This document shows positions 11,215 to 49,839 of a stretch of DNA of 64,000 nt, piece by piece. How positions within the stretch are numbered: position 1 is the first letter of the stretch; each line of letters starts with the position of its first letter. A program made the translations under genes and the position numbers. The stretch comes from Bacteroidales bacterium (GTDB lineage: Bacteria; Bacteroidota; Bacteroidia; Bacteroidales; UBA1715): NCBI GenBank assembly GCA_024402335.1, contig JAKSTZ010000010.1, forward strand, positions 1 through 64,000, written 5' to 3'. Under the pieces are notes generated by a model, which searched no databases, had not been told where the DNA came from, and saw nothing but the letters and a program-made list of their open reading frames with translations.

Positions 11215-11281
11215 CTGAGCGCTGCGAAGGATCTCCTTCACAACCGCTCCACCGTCATCCTGAACGAAGCGAAGGAACTCC
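11215..11281. repeat. Two partial copies of a dispersed GTCATCCTGA..GAAGGA repeat
   Basis: GTCATCCTGAACGAAGCGAAGGA starts at 11254, and a related half copy CTGAGCGCTGCGAAGGATCT starts at 11215. A third, more diverged copy is at 50212. The sequence is GC-richer than its surroundings. Repeats of this form are scattered between genes in many Bacteroidetes genomes. It fills the gap between two convergent genes and abuts the stop codon of the minus-strand gene at 11281. Confidence 0.6.
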
Positions 11282-37618: not shown

Positions 37619-40138
37619 CTAAATCCAACGAACATAAGAGAAATCTTGACGATATGGTAAATATTGGTTTGTAGGATACATTCTAATACCAAAGTTGAAA
37701 ATACCAGAACGGCTTGGAACTACAGTTATAGAATATACAGCTAAATTACCTTCCATTGATTCATTTTGTTCAGACAATACGAATTCAAAATTGATATCTT
37801 CAGGATTCAAGCCCTTCAAATCTACCTTCAAAGTACCATTGTACTTACCACCCAATTTGAATGATTCGTTTGGTTTTTCAACTTCTACTGATTCAACATA
37901 AATAGAATCCCATACTTCAGCAACTTTTTGTTTCCATGCTACTAATTCGTCTGCAACTTTGCAGTTGTCTTTTGTTAACATAGCATTACGTTCACCTAAC
38001 TTAGTATAGTATCTATCCTTGTAATCGTCGATCATACGTTTAGTTGTGAATTCAGGAGCGATTTCGGCGATACATTTTTTCATGTATTGGATCCATCCGT
38101 GAGGAATACCATCTTCTGCACGATTATAGAACAATGGAACGATTTCGTTTTCCAATGTTGCATAAATCATTTCAGAGTCAAGTTTGTTTTGCAAATCTTG
38201 ATTTTGGTATGTACGTTTTTCTGGCAATGCCCATCCAGCACCTTCACGGTAACCTTCGCACCACCAACCATCAAGCACACTGAAGTTCATTGCACCGTTC
38301 ATTACGGCCTTCATACCAGATGTACCAGAAGCTTCCAATGGACGTGTTGGAGTATTCATCCAAATATCTACACCTTGAACTAATTGTTTTGCAAGGTTCA
38401 TATCGTAGTTTTCCAAGAAAATAATCTTGCCCAAAAATTCTGGCAATTTCGAAATACGAACGATTTCCTTGATAATATCTTGTCCTGGTTTATCTGCTGG
38501 GTGAGCTTTACCTGCGAATACGAATTGTACAGGGTAATCAGGATTATTAACGATTTTGCTCAAACGTTCTAAGTTACTGAACAACAAGTAAGCACGTTTG
38601 TATGTAGCGAAACGACGAGCGAAACCGATTGTCAAAACGCTCTTATTCAATGTTTGGTGAACACGAACGATTTTCTTAGGATCTTCGAATTTTTCTGTCC
38701 ATGCTTTACGCAAAGATTCTTTTGCATACACTATCAAACGTTCACGTTGAGATTCTTTAATATCCCAAATTTTTTCATCTGGAACATCGAAAATCTTATT
38801 CCATAATGTTGCATTTGACATATCGCTCAAGAAACCTTCACCGAATGTTTCTTTGTGAAGTTTTTGCCATGCCTTTGATGTCCATGTTCCGTAGTGTACA
38901 CCATTAGTTACATAACCAATATGAGATTCTTCTACAGTATAACCTGGCCACAAATCTTTGAACATTTTCTTAGAAACTTCACCGTGAAGACGGCTTACAC
39001 CATTTACACCACAAGAAGTGCAGATAGCGAAGTTACTCATCGAGAAGAATTCACCCTTATTATCTGGATACATTCTACCCAAGTTCATAAATTCATTCCA
39101 GCTCAAGTTCAATCTTTCTGGGAATTGACCAAGATAAGTCATCATCATATCTTCAGGGAATGAATCGTGACCTGCAGGAACTGGAGTGTGAGTTGTATAA
39201 AGTGAAGAACCACGAACAATTTCCAATGCTTTAGGGAATGAATAATTTTCGTGTTTAATCAACTTGCGAAGACGTTCCAAGTTAATGAATGCAGCGTGAC
39301 CTTCGTTACAGTGGAACAATTCGCATTTTTCACCAACTGCTTCCAACAAACGAACACCACCAATACCAAGCAACATTTCTTGTTTCAAACGGTTTTCGTT
39401 GTTACCGCCATACAATGCGTGAGTACAGTTCTTATCGTCATCACGGTTTTCAGAAATGTCAGTATCCATCAAATACAATTTGATACGACCAACTTTCACT
39501 AACCATACTTGAGCATGCATCAAACGACCAGGCATACCAACTTGAATCATTACACGATTTCCGTTAGCATCCATTACTGGAGAGATTGGTAATTCTGATT
39601 GATTTTGAGGATTGTAGATTGCCAATTGTTCTCCATCGATAGACAAAGTCTGTTTGAAGTAACCATATTTATACAAGAAACCAACAGCAACCATGTTAGT
39701 GTTAGTATCACTTGCTTCTTTCAAATAGTCACCAGCCAAGATACCTAGACCACCAGAGAAGATCTTCAAAGAATCATCAAGACCATACTCCATACTGAAA
39801 TATGCAATACGAGGTGTTTTTGCATCTGGCTGAACAGCCATATAGTCGTTATATTTCTTTAATACAGCATTGTACTTGTTGATGAATGCTTGATCTTTCT
39901 CTAATTCTGCTAATCTATCTGCACTAATACCTTTAAGTACAGCGATAGGATTTTGAGTTTTTTGCCAAAGCTTAGAATCTATTTCTTGGAATAATTCCAT
40001 TGCTTCATAGTTCCAGCACCACCAAAGGTTGTTAGCCAATGTGCTCAATTCTTCCAAATTCTTTGGAAATGTTGATTGTACAATAACACTACGCCATTGA
40101 GGATCGTTGTGTCTGTTTTGGTTTAAATTTGCCGCCAT
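37619..40138 (-). CDS. glgP: Alpha-glucan phosphorylase (GT35)
   Basis: The enzyme releases glucose-1-phosphate from glycogen or maltodextrin with PLP as cofactor. The 839-aa protein has MAYFSMEYGLDDSL-like (RIAYFSMEYGLDDSLKIF) N-terminal sequence, GGLGILAGDYLKEASD in the active-site region, FHCNEGHAAFINLERL, and PTRPLEASGTSGMKAVMNGA with the PLP-region motif. It belongs to the shorter 'alpha-glucan family phosphorylase' branch rather than the E. coli GlgP/MalP branch. It is the last gene of the glycogen operon and ends in TAG. Confidence 0.93.
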   Translation of the reverse strand: MAANLNQNRHNDPQWRSVIVQSTFPKNLEELSTLANNLWWCWNYEAMELFQEIDSKLWQKTQNPIAVLKGISADRLAELEKDQAFINKYNAVLKKYNDYMAVQPDAKTPRIAYFSMEYGLDDSLKIFSGGLGILAGDYLKEASDTNTNMVAVGFLYKYGYFKQTLSIDGEQLAIYNPQNQSELPISPVMDANGNRVMIQVGMPGRLMHAQVWLVKVGRIKLYLMDTDISENRDDDKNCTHALYGGNNENRLKQEMLLGIGGVRLLEAVGEKCELFHCNEGHAAFINLERLRKLIKHENYSFPKALEIVRGSSLYTTHTPVPAGHDSFPEDMMMTYLGQFPERLNLSWNEFMNLGRMYPDNKGEFFSMSNFAICTSCGVNGVSRLHGEVSKKMFKDLWPGYTVEESHIGYVTNGVHYGTWTSKAWQKLHKETFGEGFLSDMSNATLWNKIFDVPDEKIWDIKESQRERLIVYAKESLRKAWTEKFEDPKKIVRVHQTLNKSVLTIGFARRFATYKRAYLLFSNLERLSKIVNNPDYPVQFVFAGKAHPADKPGQDIIKEIVRISKLPEFLGKIIFLENYDMNLAKQLVQGVDIWMNTPTRPLEASGTSGMKAVMNGAMNFSVLDGWWCEGYREGAGWALPEKRTYQNQDLQNKLDSEMIYATLENEIVPLFYNRAEDGIPHGWIQYMKKCIAEIAPEFTTKRMIDDYKDRYYTKLGERNAMLTKDNCKVADELVAWKQKVAEVWDSIYVESVEVEKPNESFKLGGKYNGTLKVDLKGLNPEDINFEFVLSEQNESMEGNLAVYSITVVPSRSGIFNFGIRMYPTNQYLPYRQDFSYVRWI

Positions 40139-40157: not shown

Positions 40158-41552
40158 TTATTTTTTAGTAGTTTTCTTTTTTGTTGTAGTTTTCTTCGCT
40201 ACAGGTTTCTTTTCTGTTTTCTCAACTTTTTCTTTTTTCGCAGTTGTTTTCTTTGCAACTGGTTTCTTTTTAGTTGATTTTGCTTTCACATTCTCCAACT
40301 CTTTCAAAATTGCTGTATATTTTTCAATTTCAGCAGTTAATTCTTCTTGTGAAAGAGCTTCGTACTTCACTTCTACCGGTTGATTATTTACTCGTTCCGT
40401 AAAATCAGAAAGCACATTCATAAAGTTTATAAATGCTTCGTATGGAGTTTGGTATGGACTACGTTCTCTATCTTTGTTAAAGAACTTTGTTCCCATATAA
40501 CGCAAATTGTCTGCAACTTGTAATCTATTCCAATCAGAAAGTAATTGTTGGTTACCCGACATTCTTACCAATTTTTGTAAAGAATACATTGCATCGAATG
40601 CCTGTTTCTGCAAATTATTACCCAACCACGCCGACAAATCACGTTCTTCGTCAGCACAAGATGTATATTGAGGAACACTCAACACAGAAATTGGTTGAAA
40701 ATTTTTAACGACTTCCGAAGGTGTTGCAAATGCAATATTCTTATCTTTTACTATCATTGCTACAAATGCAGAGAAGAAATCAAAGATTCCTGTTTCTGCA
40801 CGATTTGAATCGCCAAATGTTTCATATTGGAAGAATAAATTTACCACATCTTCTTTTTCCAATGAAGATGTAATCCAACCTACATATTTATCTGCAGTTA
40901 AAGGCCATTCCGACCAGTTTTGATTAGCAAAACGCAAAGCGACATCATCTGTCAACTTATAATTACGCAACAAGACCTTCATACGTGGCTGTGCATCGTC
41001 ACAATACACGTAGTTTGGACTCTTCCAACCTAAAATTTGATCGGCTCCCTCTCCCATTATGGCTTGGAATCCTAAATCATATATTTTCTTTCCTAATTCA
41101 TCAGAATAAGCAAGACCGGTGTTATGGAAAACCTTTGGTTTTTGACCAAACAAAGCTTCTATTTTTTCCATATTAGCTTTTGTTTGCAATTCTAATTCTT
41201 CCTGATTTGCCACAGAAACCAAAGAATAAGAATCTGGTTCAGCAACAAATTCCACACAACCTGTCGCAGCCAATTGCTTAAAACTATTCAAAACTTCAGG
41301 TGTGTACATTTCGAATTGTTCAATTGCACTACCCGAGATAGAAAAACTTACTTTGAATGCTTTTTTATTCGCATGAATTAAAGAAAGCAACAAATTGTTC
41401 ATTGGAATGTAACAACGCTTTGCAATTGTCAACGCATTAGATCTATTAGTAAAATCATCATAATAATAGTGATCTTGACCTATATCGAAGAAACGGTATG
41501 ATCGCAACTGAAATGGTTGATGAACCGAAAAATGCAAACAAATGTTTTTCAT
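40158..41552 (-). CDS. GH57 alpha-amylase-family glycoside hydrolase
   Basis: The 464-aa protein starts MKNICLHFSVHQPFQ; the HQP is GH57 conserved motif 1. The N-terminal 330 residues form the (beta/alpha)7 barrel, with NTGLAYSDELGKKIYDLGF followed by QAIMGEGADQ. There is no signal peptide, so it acts on cytoplasmic glycogen. The last 40 residues are a lysine-rich tail with the block KKPVAKKTT occurring twice, resembling histone H1 tails; it is absent from the catalytic fold. It lies between the glycosyltransferase (3 bases) and the phosphorylase (19 bases). Alpha-1,4-glucan hydrolysis or branching/transfer is possible. Confidence 0.9.
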   Translation of the reverse strand: MKNICLHFSVHQPFQLRSYRFFDIGQDHYYYDDFTNRSNALTIAKRCYIPMNNLLLSLIHANKKAFKVSFSISGSAIEQFEMYTPEVLNSFKQLAATGCVEFVAEPDSYSLVSVANQEELELQTKANMEKIEALFGQKPKVFHNTGLAYSDELGKKIYDLGFQAIMGEGADQILGWKSPNYVYCDDAQPRMKVLLRNYKLTDDVALRFANQNWSEWPLTADKYVGWITSSLEKEDVVNLFFQYETFGDSNRAETGIFDFFSAFVAMIVKDKNIAFATPSEVVKNFQPISVLSVPQYTSCADEERDLSAWLGNNLQKQAFDAMYSLQKLVRMSGNQQLLSDWNRLQVADNLRYMGTKFFNKDRERSPYQTPYEAFINFMNVLSDFTERVNNQPVEVKYEALSQEELTAEIEKYTAILKELENVKAKSTKKKPVAKKTTAKKEKVEKTEKKPVAKKTTTKKKTTKK

Positions 41553-42879: not shown

Positions 42880-43077
42880 TTATTTTTGTTCTTCTGCCTC
42901 AAAATTTTGAATCAACTTACATATACGTAGAGCAGCACCAACCGACCATGCTTGAGAAATAGAACCTCTTGGAGTATATGGAGGATTTCCGTCAAACACT
43001 TCACCTATAGTTCCTAAACCATATTCACGAACCAATGTCTCCAAATCGCCATAAATACGTTTTATTTCGGCAACACC
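42880..43077 (-). pseudogene. C-terminal remnant of the debranching enzyme, downstream of an in-frame TAG
   Basis: Directly after the TAG at 43078-43080 the same frame stays open for 65 codons to TAA at 42880-42882. It reads GVAEIKRIYGDLETLVREYG, LGTIGEVFDGNPPYTPRGS, then ISQAWSVGAALRICKLI. The block GEVFDGNPPYTPRGSISQAW is the conserved end of amylo-alpha-1,6-glucosidases. So this is the true C-terminus of the upstream gene, cut off by a single nonsense codon, not a separate gene. Its TAA lies a few bases before the glycosyltransferase start, as expected for the intact operon. Confidence 0.9.
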
Positions 43078-44826
43078 CTAACGACCATGTAGTTTCAAAT
43101 AAGCTTCTGCATACGGCGCCAACAACCACATCAAAACGCCACCATTGTGGTACGCATAATCACGTTCTTCTATAGTTCCTGTGATTGTTCCTACATAATT
43201 CTGACTTTTAGGAGACAATGTACGAATACCGCAAGGTGCTAGCAATTCTTTTCGCACATGTTCCAAAATAGAATGACGTTTTTCATCTTCAAGTGGAGAG
43301 AATGGCAACGATGCACCAAAAATCTGACTTGGACGCATAGAAAAATCCTTATAGTCATTTACACAGAAGTCTGCTAAATAACCATGTTCGTCATCCCAAA
43401 ACATTTCGTCAAAAGATTTTTCGATTTTCGCAGGAATATCTTTCCATTTATCTTGGAAAGATTTCTTTGTAATTAATTCCAATGCAAAACAAATCGCATT
43501 GTACCACAAAGCATTCACTTCTACAACATATCCCCAACGTTTTACAACAGGCACGCCGTTTACCTTGGCATCAACCCACGTAAGTGCTTTGTTTTCGTCT
43601 GGCAAATACAACAAACCATTATCATGCATAATGACATTTCCGTTTTCACCAGACATATATGTATTCAGAATCTCTTCTACTTTTTTCTGATACAATTTTC
43701 TCGTCAATGCAACATCTTTGGTATTCCAATTGAACTGTTGTACTGAACGAATATACCATAAAGCAGTATCAATAGACTCCGTATTCGTATGTTCTATATT
43801 TCCTTTATTCTTGTACACATAGCCATCGATATCGTTAGACATAGTGTCAAGAACAGCACGACAAGTATCCCAATCACCTTGAGCTAAAGTCAAACCAGGA
43901 AGCGAGACCAAGCTGTCTCGTCCCCACAACCCTGTCCATGGGAAGCTGGCAATAACTTCACATCCTTTAGGAGAACGATACATAAACTGACGAGCCGCAT
44001 GACGAAGACATTCTTCGAAATTACTTTGTACATCACGACCTTTTGTTTCCTTTTCGAACATTCCTTTTAATGTTGTTGTTTTTATTGGTTTTAATCCCGC
44101 AGAAAACACAACACTCTCTCCTTCTTTTAAGGTTACTTCGAAAAAGCCTGGAGTAAATAAATCTTCAGAACATTCATATCCACGTTCACTTTCTCTATCG
44201 TATGTAAAATTACGATACCAGTCTGGTGCAGATACAAATTCGTTCTTTTTAGACAACTGCATATTTACAGTTGGAAAGTATTCGTACAAACAATTCGAGA
44301 TACCATTTTCTATCACAAGATGTCTTGTATTAGCACCAGTATTTGCATGAGTCAATTCATGAACTTTTCGGAAAGCCAAAAATGGACGCAACTGTAATGT
44401 CGCAGGCATAGTTGAGCTCAATACAGTATAACGAATCAAGAAACGTTCATCATTGTCAACTAAAACCATTTCTTTTTGCAAAACCAAACCTCCAACACGG
44501 AACACTACCGTTGTTACCGGCGAGTTTTTGTATGACTCAATATACTTATAACCTGTTGGATAAATATCATTTCCAAACTTGTGTGTAGCTAACTGGAATG
44601 GCGTTTTTTCAACAATCACAGTTTCGTCTAACGAAGACAATAACACATAGTTTTCACCATCTATTTCTTTAATAGGACAAACCAATAAACCATGATACTT
44701 TCTTGTATTACAGTTTACAATAGTCGAGTTTGCATACGAACCTGCTTTATTCGTGCGTAAGAATTCACACTGTAGAGAAGTCTGCAAGTTCGTCACTTGT
44801 TGGCGGGAAAATTCTAAATACTCCAT
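43078..44826 (-). CDS. Glycogen debranching enzyme (amylo-alpha-1,6-glucosidase), truncated by TAG
   Basis: The ORF encodes 582 aa; with the downstream remnant the ancestral protein would be about 648 aa, the usual length of the Bacteroidetes enzyme. Residues 15-250 form the N-terminal glucan-binding domain (LRTNKAGSYANSTIVNCNTR, KYHGLLV). Residues 280-582 form the (alpha/alpha)6 GH133-type catalytic domain with ASFPWTGLWGRDSLVSLPGL, EHTNTESIDTALWYIRSVQQ and RDYAYHNGGVLMWLLAPYAE. The stop follows LKLHGR and removes the last two helices of the toroid. That would probably destabilise the protein. TAG is used as a normal stop elsewhere here (for example glgP), so recoding is unlikely. It is the first gene of the operon. 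Confidence 0.88.
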   Translation of the reverse strand: MEYLEFSRQQVTNLQTSLQCEFLRTNKAGSYANSTIVNCNTRKYHGLLVCPIKEIDGENYVLLSSLDETVIVEKTPFQLATHKFGNDIYPTGYKYIESYKNSPVTTVVFRVGGLVLQKEMVLVDNDERFLIRYTVLSSTMPATLQLRPFLAFRKVHELTHANTGANTRHLVIENGISNCLYEYFPTVNMQLSKKNEFVSAPDWYRNFTYDRESERGYECSEDLFTPGFFEVTLKEGESVVFSAGLKPIKTTTLKGMFEKETKGRDVQSNFEECLRHAARQFMYRSPKGCEVIASFPWTGLWGRDSLVSLPGLTLAQGDWDTCRAVLDTMSNDIDGYVYKNKGNIEHTNTESIDTALWYIRSVQQFNWNTKDVALTRKLYQKKVEEILNTYMSGENGNVIMHDNGLLYLPDENKALTWVDAKVNGVPVVKRWGYVVEVNALWYNAICFALELITKKSFQDKWKDIPAKIEKSFDEMFWDDEHGYLADFCVNDYKDFSMRPSQIFGASLPFSPLEDEKRHSILEHVRKELLAPCGIRTLSPKSQNYVGTITGTIEERDYAYHNGGVLMWLLAPYAEAYLKLHGR

Positions 44827-47361: not shown

Positions 47362-47808
47362 TTACTTGTTTTTTATCTCCAAATCAATATATTGAGCAGG
47401 CTTAGTAAGCCAATTAATTAATTTACGAACAGGCAACAGCAATAATTGTAATATATCTCTTTTTACTGTCAGCAAAACTGGTATATAATAAGAAACTAGC
47501 AATACACCTAAACAAGACAAAAAACAATCTGTTACAAGAGCATAAACAGAAACACATATTCCCACAAAATAAGAAATAAAACAAATTGCATCTAACAAGA
47601 ATTCAAAAAAAAGTCTTTTCAAAAACACCAAAAAGGAATATGATCCCTCTATTTTTGATAGTTTTAAATAATCATTTTTCTTTTGCTCAATTAATCTATA
47701 GCCAGCTTTTTTCCACAAAGTAAAAGGTGCTATAATAATTAAATTAAATATAGTATAAAGGAAATGACCTAGTGCCTCTGTTATTAATTTTATAATACTT
47801 ATTTCCAT
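47362..47808 (-). CDS. Hypothetical membrane protein, 148 aa
   Basis: From the ATG at 47808 (MEISIIKLITEALGHFLYT) the product is 148 aa; an open extension to 47886 would overlap the upstream gene and is unlikely. A first hydrophobic segment (residues 10-30), a charged linker with WKKAGYRLIEQKKNDYLKL, a long hydrophobic region (about 65-115) with AICFISYFVGICVSVYALV, and a basic C-terminus are seen, giving three or four membrane helices. The family is unknown. It starts 25 bases after the 366-aa lipoprotein gene and is almost certainly co-transcribed. Confidence 0.7.
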   Translation of the reverse strand: MEISIIKLITEALGHFLYTIFNLIIIAPFTLWKKAGYRLIEQKKNDYLKLSKIEGSYSFLVFLKRLFFEFLLDAICFISYFVGICVSVYALVTDCFLSCLGVLLVSYYIPVLLTVKRDILQLLLLPVRKLINWLTKPAQYIDLEIKNK

Positions 47809-47833
47809 AATTAATCTATTCTTTTTACAAAAA

Positions 47834-48934
47834 CTATATTTCTTCTGAAATAAAATCATACACTTGTTCAATGTCTTCCAAATCATTATTATCTACTTCT
47901 ACAATGTTAGAAGAAATCATATTCTTCTTAGATAATTCTTCTGAGGAAAAAACCATTGAATCATTAAAAGTTTGTGCTTCATTATTTTTTTCAAAATTAT
48001 TATTGTCTTCTGTTTCTGTATTCTCAGAAGATTCCGATCGAGTATTTTTCTTAGGAGAACCTAATATCCAACCACTTTCATTATCAAAAACAAATGATAA
48101 TTTATTCAATGACTTTGTTCCTTTTACATTTCCATTCAAGACATAACCAAATGGAGTAACTATTGAATTTTCAACAATAACTTCTGCAGAAGCGACAAAA
48201 TCATTACAAACATCTTTTTTATTCTTCTTTGACTGGAAAAATTGGAAAAGTCCACAACTTTTATTTGGACATGTAACATCACATATAATATTACGAATTT
48301 TAAATATTGATCTTTGTTGTCCAATAAGTTGTACTGTATCTTTTGTAACATCCAAAGACAACAATTCATACAACGACAATTCTTTTGACACTTTTTCTAA
48401 TGCCCAAACAGGTTTTTCAGGAACAACTGGCTTTGGAACAATATGCACTATAGTATCATAACATTCCGTTGGATTTATAACAACAATATCCTCTTCGTTT
48501 GATATAGAATCAGAAACATGTTTTTCCTTTTCAAAACGATTTTTCATATCAACATCTTCATTTGAAACAACAGCTGTTTTTGCACACGTCGTTTGCTTAG
48601 GACTATAAATCCATTTTGAGCCTTCTTTTGTAAGAGCGACCTTTACAAAAATATGAGGATTATTATTGTCATCCAAAACTTTCTCTGCTTCATATGTTAT
48701 TACACCTTCAGCAGCAAGTTTTCGAAGTAACAATCTCTGTTCAGAATTATTCTCTTCATAAAAACCAACTATTAAAGAAACAATATCACCCTTTTGTATA
48801 GAATCAACCACTGGTTTATACAACTTAGAAATTTCATTTTTTGTAATTTCTTTTACTGTTTTCTTACCATTACATGCCCCAAGAAGAAGCAAGCTAAATA
48901 TGGAAAGAAAAGATATTTTCAAATATTTATTCAT
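47834..48934 (-). CDS. Putative lipoprotein, 366 aa (paralogue 2)
   Basis: A signal peptide ends in the lipobox LLGAC (Cys21), so it is anchored in a membrane. Residues 30-115 contain SLIVGFYEENNSEQRLLLRK and LAAEGVITYEAEKV. Residues 240-290 contain SAEVIVENSIVTPFGYVLNG followed by NVKGTKSLN. Both blocks are shared with the adjacent 291-aa lipoprotein. Unique features are a cysteine-rich insert (CDVTCPNKSCG) near residue 220 and an acidic, Asn/Ser-rich C-terminal tail of about 70 residues. The family is not recognised. The first block looks like a small helix-turn-helix-type fold with a beta wing, but outside the cell that would be a scaffold rather than a DNA binder. It probably arose by tandem duplication. 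Confidence 0.75.
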   Translation of the reverse strand: MNKYLKISFLSIFSLLLLGACNGKKTVKEITKNEISKLYKPVVDSIQKGDIVSLIVGFYEENNSEQRLLLRKLAAEGVITYEAEKVLDDNNNPHIFVKVALTKEGSKWIYSPKQTTCAKTAVVSNEDVDMKNRFEKEKHVSDSISNEEDIVVINPTECYDTIVHIVPKPVVPEKPVWALEKVSKELSLYELLSLDVTKDTVQLIGQQRSIFKIRNIICDVTCPNKSCGLFQFFQSKKNKKDVCNDFVASAEVIVENSIVTPFGYVLNGNVKGTKSLNKLSFVFDNESGWILGSPKKNTRSESSENTETEDNNNFEKNNEAQTFNDSMVFSSEELSKKNMISSNIVEVDNNDLEDIEQVYDFISEEI

Positions 48935-48963
48935 AGCATAATTTTATTTTAACCATACTAGTT

Positions 48964-49839
48964 TTATTCTTCAACAGTCTTTTCTGTTGTTTTAACATTA
49001 GCTTCATTTACAATTTTCCAACCATCTTCATATTTTTGGAATGTATAATGATATTTTTCTTTTACCCCTTTGGTTTTTCCTTCCAAAATACGACCAAACG
49101 GAGTAACATCACTTGTTTCAAAGATTACATCTGCAAATGACAAACCTTGTTCTTTCATCATTTTAGTTGCAATCAAATTAGACACTTTACATACAGATTT
49201 TGTCAAAGTATTTACCATAACCTTTTTCTCAACAACTTTTTTCAATTCTAATTCATATATAGAAGGTTCTGGTTTAACAACATCTTCTTTTTTTGACAAC
49301 ACAGAATCAATATCATCTTCAACAACAGGATTACGAACAGGAATATTTTCGTCGACAGCAACAGCATCGGCAGGATATTTTTCATTTGCAAAATTATTCT
49401 CCATATCCGAAGGGAATATAGTTCTAGGTTCTTTCGTAACAACAGCAGAATCAACAACAACCATCGTCTTACCAGCATCAGTCAGTTCAACATTCACAAA
49501 TACATGAGCAGCAGAAACATATGCTTTCCTTATTTTTTCTTTACCTTTTATAATCGTTGTTGAATCAACTTCATTTATAATTTCCGCACTATATGAAATC
49601 ACTCCATTAGCAGCTAATTGGCGAAGTTTATAACGAGCCTCTTTACAATTTAATTCATAATAACCTGTTTTAAACTCAACCACATGGCTACCTTTTTTAA
49701 AATCAGCAAACTGACTTACAACATTTTGTACTTCTTGTTCTGTAATCACACTCGTTTCTCCTTGTTTGGCATCTTGATTACAGCTTGAAAAAACAAAACC
49801 TGCACATATTAGTGCGCAAAACATAAAATTTTTTTTCAT
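48964..49839 (-). CDS. Putative lipoprotein, 291 aa (paralogue 1)
   Basis: The signal peptide ends with VFSSC (lipobox, Cys20). The conserved blocks are FKTGYYELNCKEARYKLRQ, LAANGVISYSAEII, HVFVNVELTDAGKTMVV, and near the C-terminus ADVIFETSDVTPFGRILEGK followed by TKGVKEKYHYTF and DGWKIVNEA. The same order occurs in the neighbour at 47834, 29 bases downstream. The central part is acidic and low in complexity (DDIDSVLSKKEDVVKPEP). I do not recognise the family and give no function. No exact -7 element was found upstream in the 535-bp gap. Confidence 0.75.
   Translation of the reverse strand: MKKNFMFCALICAGFVFSSCNQDAKQGETSVITEQEVQNVVSQFADFKKGSHVVEFKTGYYELNCKEARYKLRQLAANGVISYSAEIINEVDSTTIIKGKEKIRKAYVSAAHVFVNVELTDAGKTMVVVDSAVVTKEPRTIFPSDMENNFANEKYPADAVAVDENIPVRNPVVEDDIDSVLSKKEDVVKPEPSIYELELKKVVEKKVMVNTLTKSVCKVSNLIATKMMKEQGLSFADVIFETSDVTPFGRILEGKTKGVKEKYHYTFQKYEDGWKIVNEANVKTTEKTVEE

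Follow-up and report, generated by a model that had tools for sequence, protein, structure and literature searches.

The gene for a glycogen debranching enzyme (GDE) in this window, by which we mean the whole 64,000-nucleotide stretch of DNA that was analysed, probably carries a very recent and quite ordinary nonsense mutation, one that, as far as sequence comparison can tell, would make the only GDE_N/GDE_C-type debranching gene a null in this one genome. Translated on the minus strand from 44826, the frame runs for 582 residues ending in LKLHGR and then meets a TAG at 43078-43080; beyond it lie 65 sense codons (GVAEIKR...DGNPPYTPRGSISQAWSVGAAL...EEQK), closed by a TAA at 42880. The features concerned are listed here.

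43078..44826, minus strand: truncated debranching-enzyme open reading frame of 582 aa, ending in TAG; it contains GDE_N and GDE_C, the latter ending early, at position 311 of the 367 in its profile.
43078..43080, minus strand: the premature TAG, which stands at codon 583, where the genus has serine (five of six congeners with TCG, the nearest with TCT).
42880..43077, minus strand: remnant past the TAG, which keeps its conservation; it comprises 65 sense codons plus the TAA that was the ancestral stop.
43000..43002, minus strand: codon for invariant E609, beyond the TAG; through E1502 of human GDE this residue aligns with E1492, a catalytic residue of Candida glabrata GDE (PMC4837477).
43570..43572, minus strand: codon for invariant D419, kept in the truncated product; this residue aligns with D1241, likewise catalytic in the C. 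glabrata enzyme (PMC4837477).
41556..42893, minus strand: GT4/GlgA-like glycosyltransferase gene, downstream; intact relative to the nearest relative.
40158..41552, minus strand: GH57 glycoside hydrolase gene, intact.
37619..40138, minus strand: alpha-glucan phosphorylase gene, intact; its normal stop is TAG.

The sequence-only reading had described a frame open for 65 codons past this TAG to 42880, and our translation gave the same result. Its view that these codons hold the conserved end of the family was borne out as well: the tail scores as coding by codon usage and aligns with orthologues along its full length, which shows it to be true coding sequence and no chance open frame. Joined across the TAG, the frame gives 648 residues, compared with open frames of 649-681 in all six congeners, in keeping with the earlier estimate that about 648 aa is the normal length. 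In the 582-aa open reading frame both domains exceed their curated cut-offs (GDE_N, 248 bits; GDE_C, 230 bits), and GDE_C is complete, to position 367 of 367, only in the joined 648-aa frame. The identical TAG is present at the locus in the whole-genome record from which the window comes. The neighbouring genes of the cluster are unbroken, as had been claimed for the rest of the operon.

What codon 583 was before the change is suggested by the relatives. We searched 60 genomes for orthologues and found the GDE gene in 58. The comparison at codon 583 that the sequence-only reading had proposed returned serine in all six congeners, encoded by TCG in five of them and by TCT in the sixth, the nearest at 92% identity, and serine again in all seven other family members; outside the family, serine is the commonest residue. 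TCG becomes TAG by a single C-to-A change. With serine, mostly TCG, standing at this codon across the congeners and the family, one such change accounts for the TAG, and the locus thereby shows the sense codon in close relatives and the one-step change that mark a recent nonsense pseudogene. No internal stop was present in the other gene-bearing genomes of the order (n = 57) except one, a TAA at codon 645. This exceptional congener has its debranching-enzyme stop shifted to four codons ahead of the usual one, a trivial shortening.

The tail has evolved no faster than the body of the gene. Relative to the nearest congener, dN is 0.053 and dS about 1.7 in the body, and dN is 0.056 and dS about 1.3 in the tail. 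Residue changes unique to the window's genome number 2 of 65 in the tail and 18 of 582 in the body, 3.1% in both. When we simulated unconstrained drift of the tail at 0.1 substitutions per site, about 13 residues changed (5-95% range 8-18) and a further stop arose in 61% of runs. An ancient lesion is ruled out by this equal constraint on tail and body; the stop must be either very young relative to the divergence from the nearest congener or not real.

The second of these possibilities, a consensus base error, is the main rival, though clearly less likely than a recent mutation. It would mean that low coverage, mixed strains or a miscall introduced the TAG into a draft, probably metagenome-assembled genome, and that living cells carry a sense codon. 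The assembly is a 2.48 Mb draft in 86 contigs, 94% complete, and the named congeners are all metagenome-assembled Bacteroidales, some from ruminant gut. Every relative has an intact copy of the gene, and the complete absence of decay in the tail fits a base error just as well as a recent mutation. Against an error stand the low contamination (0.14%) and the lack of any other premature stop among the compared genes of the contig, with none apparent in the 430 kb sampled, indicating that the assembly is not generally poor. A literature search on nonsense errors in metagenome assemblies turned up nothing directly applicable. The sequence-only reading had held that a sense codon in close relatives would make the TAG an assembly error. 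All the relatives do have one, and this is no proof, since a genuine recent mutation yields the same pattern.

We also considered whether the TAG might be decoded. Constraint on the tail equal to that on the body is what one would expect if programmed or suppressor-driven read-through occurred at some frequency and both 582- and 648-residue proteins were made, and the base following the TAG is G rather than T, the T context being tied to strong termination (PMC5289835). However, programmed read-through would be expected to leave a stop conserved at the site among relatives, and TAG stands at codon 583 in none of them, leaving no conserved read-through signal; moreover, a plain mutation predicts just this combination of a conserved serine and a one-step codon. 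Nor did we find a suppressor tRNA. None of 33 tRNA matches in an RNA family search of the 94% complete genome had a CUA anticodon, although a single gene could still hide there, and a partial match at a contig end proved, when read by eye, to be Lys CUU. A pattern scan of the genome for CUA tRNAs was likewise empty, while the equivalent pattern, given the right anticodon, finds 26 of the genome's 30 known tRNAs. We regard read-through at this codon as very improbable.

That TAG has been reassigned to an amino acid across the genome, a reading for which a single in-frame TAG is the whole of the evidence, is so improbable that it can practically be set aside. Reassignment would place TAG inside many conserved genes and leave it unused as a stop, and it would come with a CUA-anticodon tRNA and a lost or altered RF1. 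Here, in a 430 kb sample of the genome, the 324 open reading frames of at least 150 aa end in TAA (236), TAG (67) or TGA (21), and RF1 is intact, above its curated cut-off. No other gene in that sample looked read through; judged by overlap with called open reading frames and by a methionine soon after the stop, the other coding-like continuations past stops seem to be where neighbouring genes begin. Among the contig genes comparable with the syntenic contig of the nearest relative, the GDE gene alone has a homologue running open past the stop (for one small open reading frame the sole match was the next gene), and for the TAG-ended genes the stop positions in the nearest relative coincide with those here. 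The phosphorylase gene at 37619 (glgP) and the gene at 11281 both end in TAG, as the sequence-only reading had noted in arguing against general recoding, and TAG at the ends of open reading frames together with the intact RF1 rules such recoding out. That reading had left four options open for the lesion: a very recent change, a sequencing error, a read-through codon or a strain difference. A very recent change is the best supported and a base error is less probable; the genome-wide use of TAG, the intact RF1 and the tRNA searches, which found no CUA anticodon, speak against read-through and recoding.

If the TAG is a recent nonsense mutation, as we favour, a single C-to-A change would have turned the genus-typical serine codon 583 into TAG, and translation would be expected to end there, given the ordinary use of TAG. 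We addressed the effect on the protein with a profile of 19 orthologues and a model of the joined protein. In the glucosidase site of C. glabrata GDE, Asp1241 and Glu1492 are the catalytic residues, and the D1241A and E1492A enzymes have no significant debranching activity (PMC4837477). Counting along the printed alignment, D419 aligns with D1241; E609, invariant in all 19 orthologues, aligns with human GDE E1502, itself aligned with C. glabrata E1492. The translated product has D419 and lacks the pair, E609 lying past the TAG, though the gene is orthologous. The model (mean pLDDT 67, moderate, and used for helix placement only) puts codon 583 inside a long helix spanning 566-602 and has its last helix at 626-644; Foldseek matched it to (alpha/alpha)6-type glycosidases and phosphorylases and to C. 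glabrata GDE. The truncated product would thus lose the final helix and half of another from its (alpha/alpha)6 catalytic domain, together with the catalytic E609, and with these missing, its amylo-alpha-1,6-glucosidase activity should be absent. We predict that the 582-residue protein should be inactive in debranching because E609 lies past the TAG. The earlier suggestion that the change alters glycogen structure holds in that an effect on glycogen is expected; the expected effect is more exactly a loss of debranching, since the tail holds E609.

No confident backup debranching enzyme was seen. A second full-length copy was considered and rejected, as the genome has only one GDE copy. Its three GH13 genes comprise one GlgB-like gene, located away from the cluster, and two amylase- or cyclomaltodextrinase-like genes, with no confident GlgX or pullulanase among them. 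Branched glucan would presumably still be made and phosphorolysis would proceed down to the branch points, with the result that a limit-dextrin-like glucan should accumulate in cells of the TAG genotype. That the allele is a common, selected null, with debranching loss favoured in the population through, for example, altered turnover of stored glucan in the gut, strikes us as very improbable.

Two further observations concern the surroundings. The genome has synthase-like, GlgB-like and phosphorylase genes, yet no GlgC (ADP-glucose pyrophosphorylase) exceeded the curated cut-off, leaving no evident sugar-nucleotide donor for glycogen synthesis unless the GlgC gene sits in the missing 6% of the genome. 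At 47362-49839, three adjacent genes (47362, 47834 and 48964) are unmatched in the syntenic contig of the nearest relative, while the flanking genes match on both sides; two of the three encode lipoprotein-like proteins, apparently related to each other.

Compared with known systems, the joined frame has the full domain architecture of a bacterial/archaeal-type GDE (Pfam GDE_N PF12439 and GDE_C PF06202; near TIGR01561), and shares the catalytic pair D419/E609 and the arrangement alongside glycosyltransferase, GH57 and phosphorylase genes; the window's copy differs in stopping at codon 583 of 648, without the end of GDE_C and E609. It resembles an ordinary recent nonsense pseudogene in its one-step change, its intact orthologues in relatives and its lack of further decay, and is distinctive only in that a single-copy metabolic gene is affected, taking the base as the draft assembly gives it. 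With stop-codon read-through or TAG recoding it has in common an in-frame TAG with conserved coding sequence behind it, but differs in that the TAG is unconserved, no suppressor tRNA was found, RF1 is intact and TAG is a normal stop. This looks like an ordinary broken copy of very recent date, or a base error in the assembly, rather than a novel reading of the code.

The finding has little importance beyond annotation, and the premature TAG is no evidence for an altered genetic code. Metabolic models built from this genome should leave the GDE gene as non-functional pending a check of the base. A real mutation should halt glucan breakdown at branch points and, if it is also frequent in the population, would offer a natural glycogen-debranching null in a gut bacterium that is uncultured.
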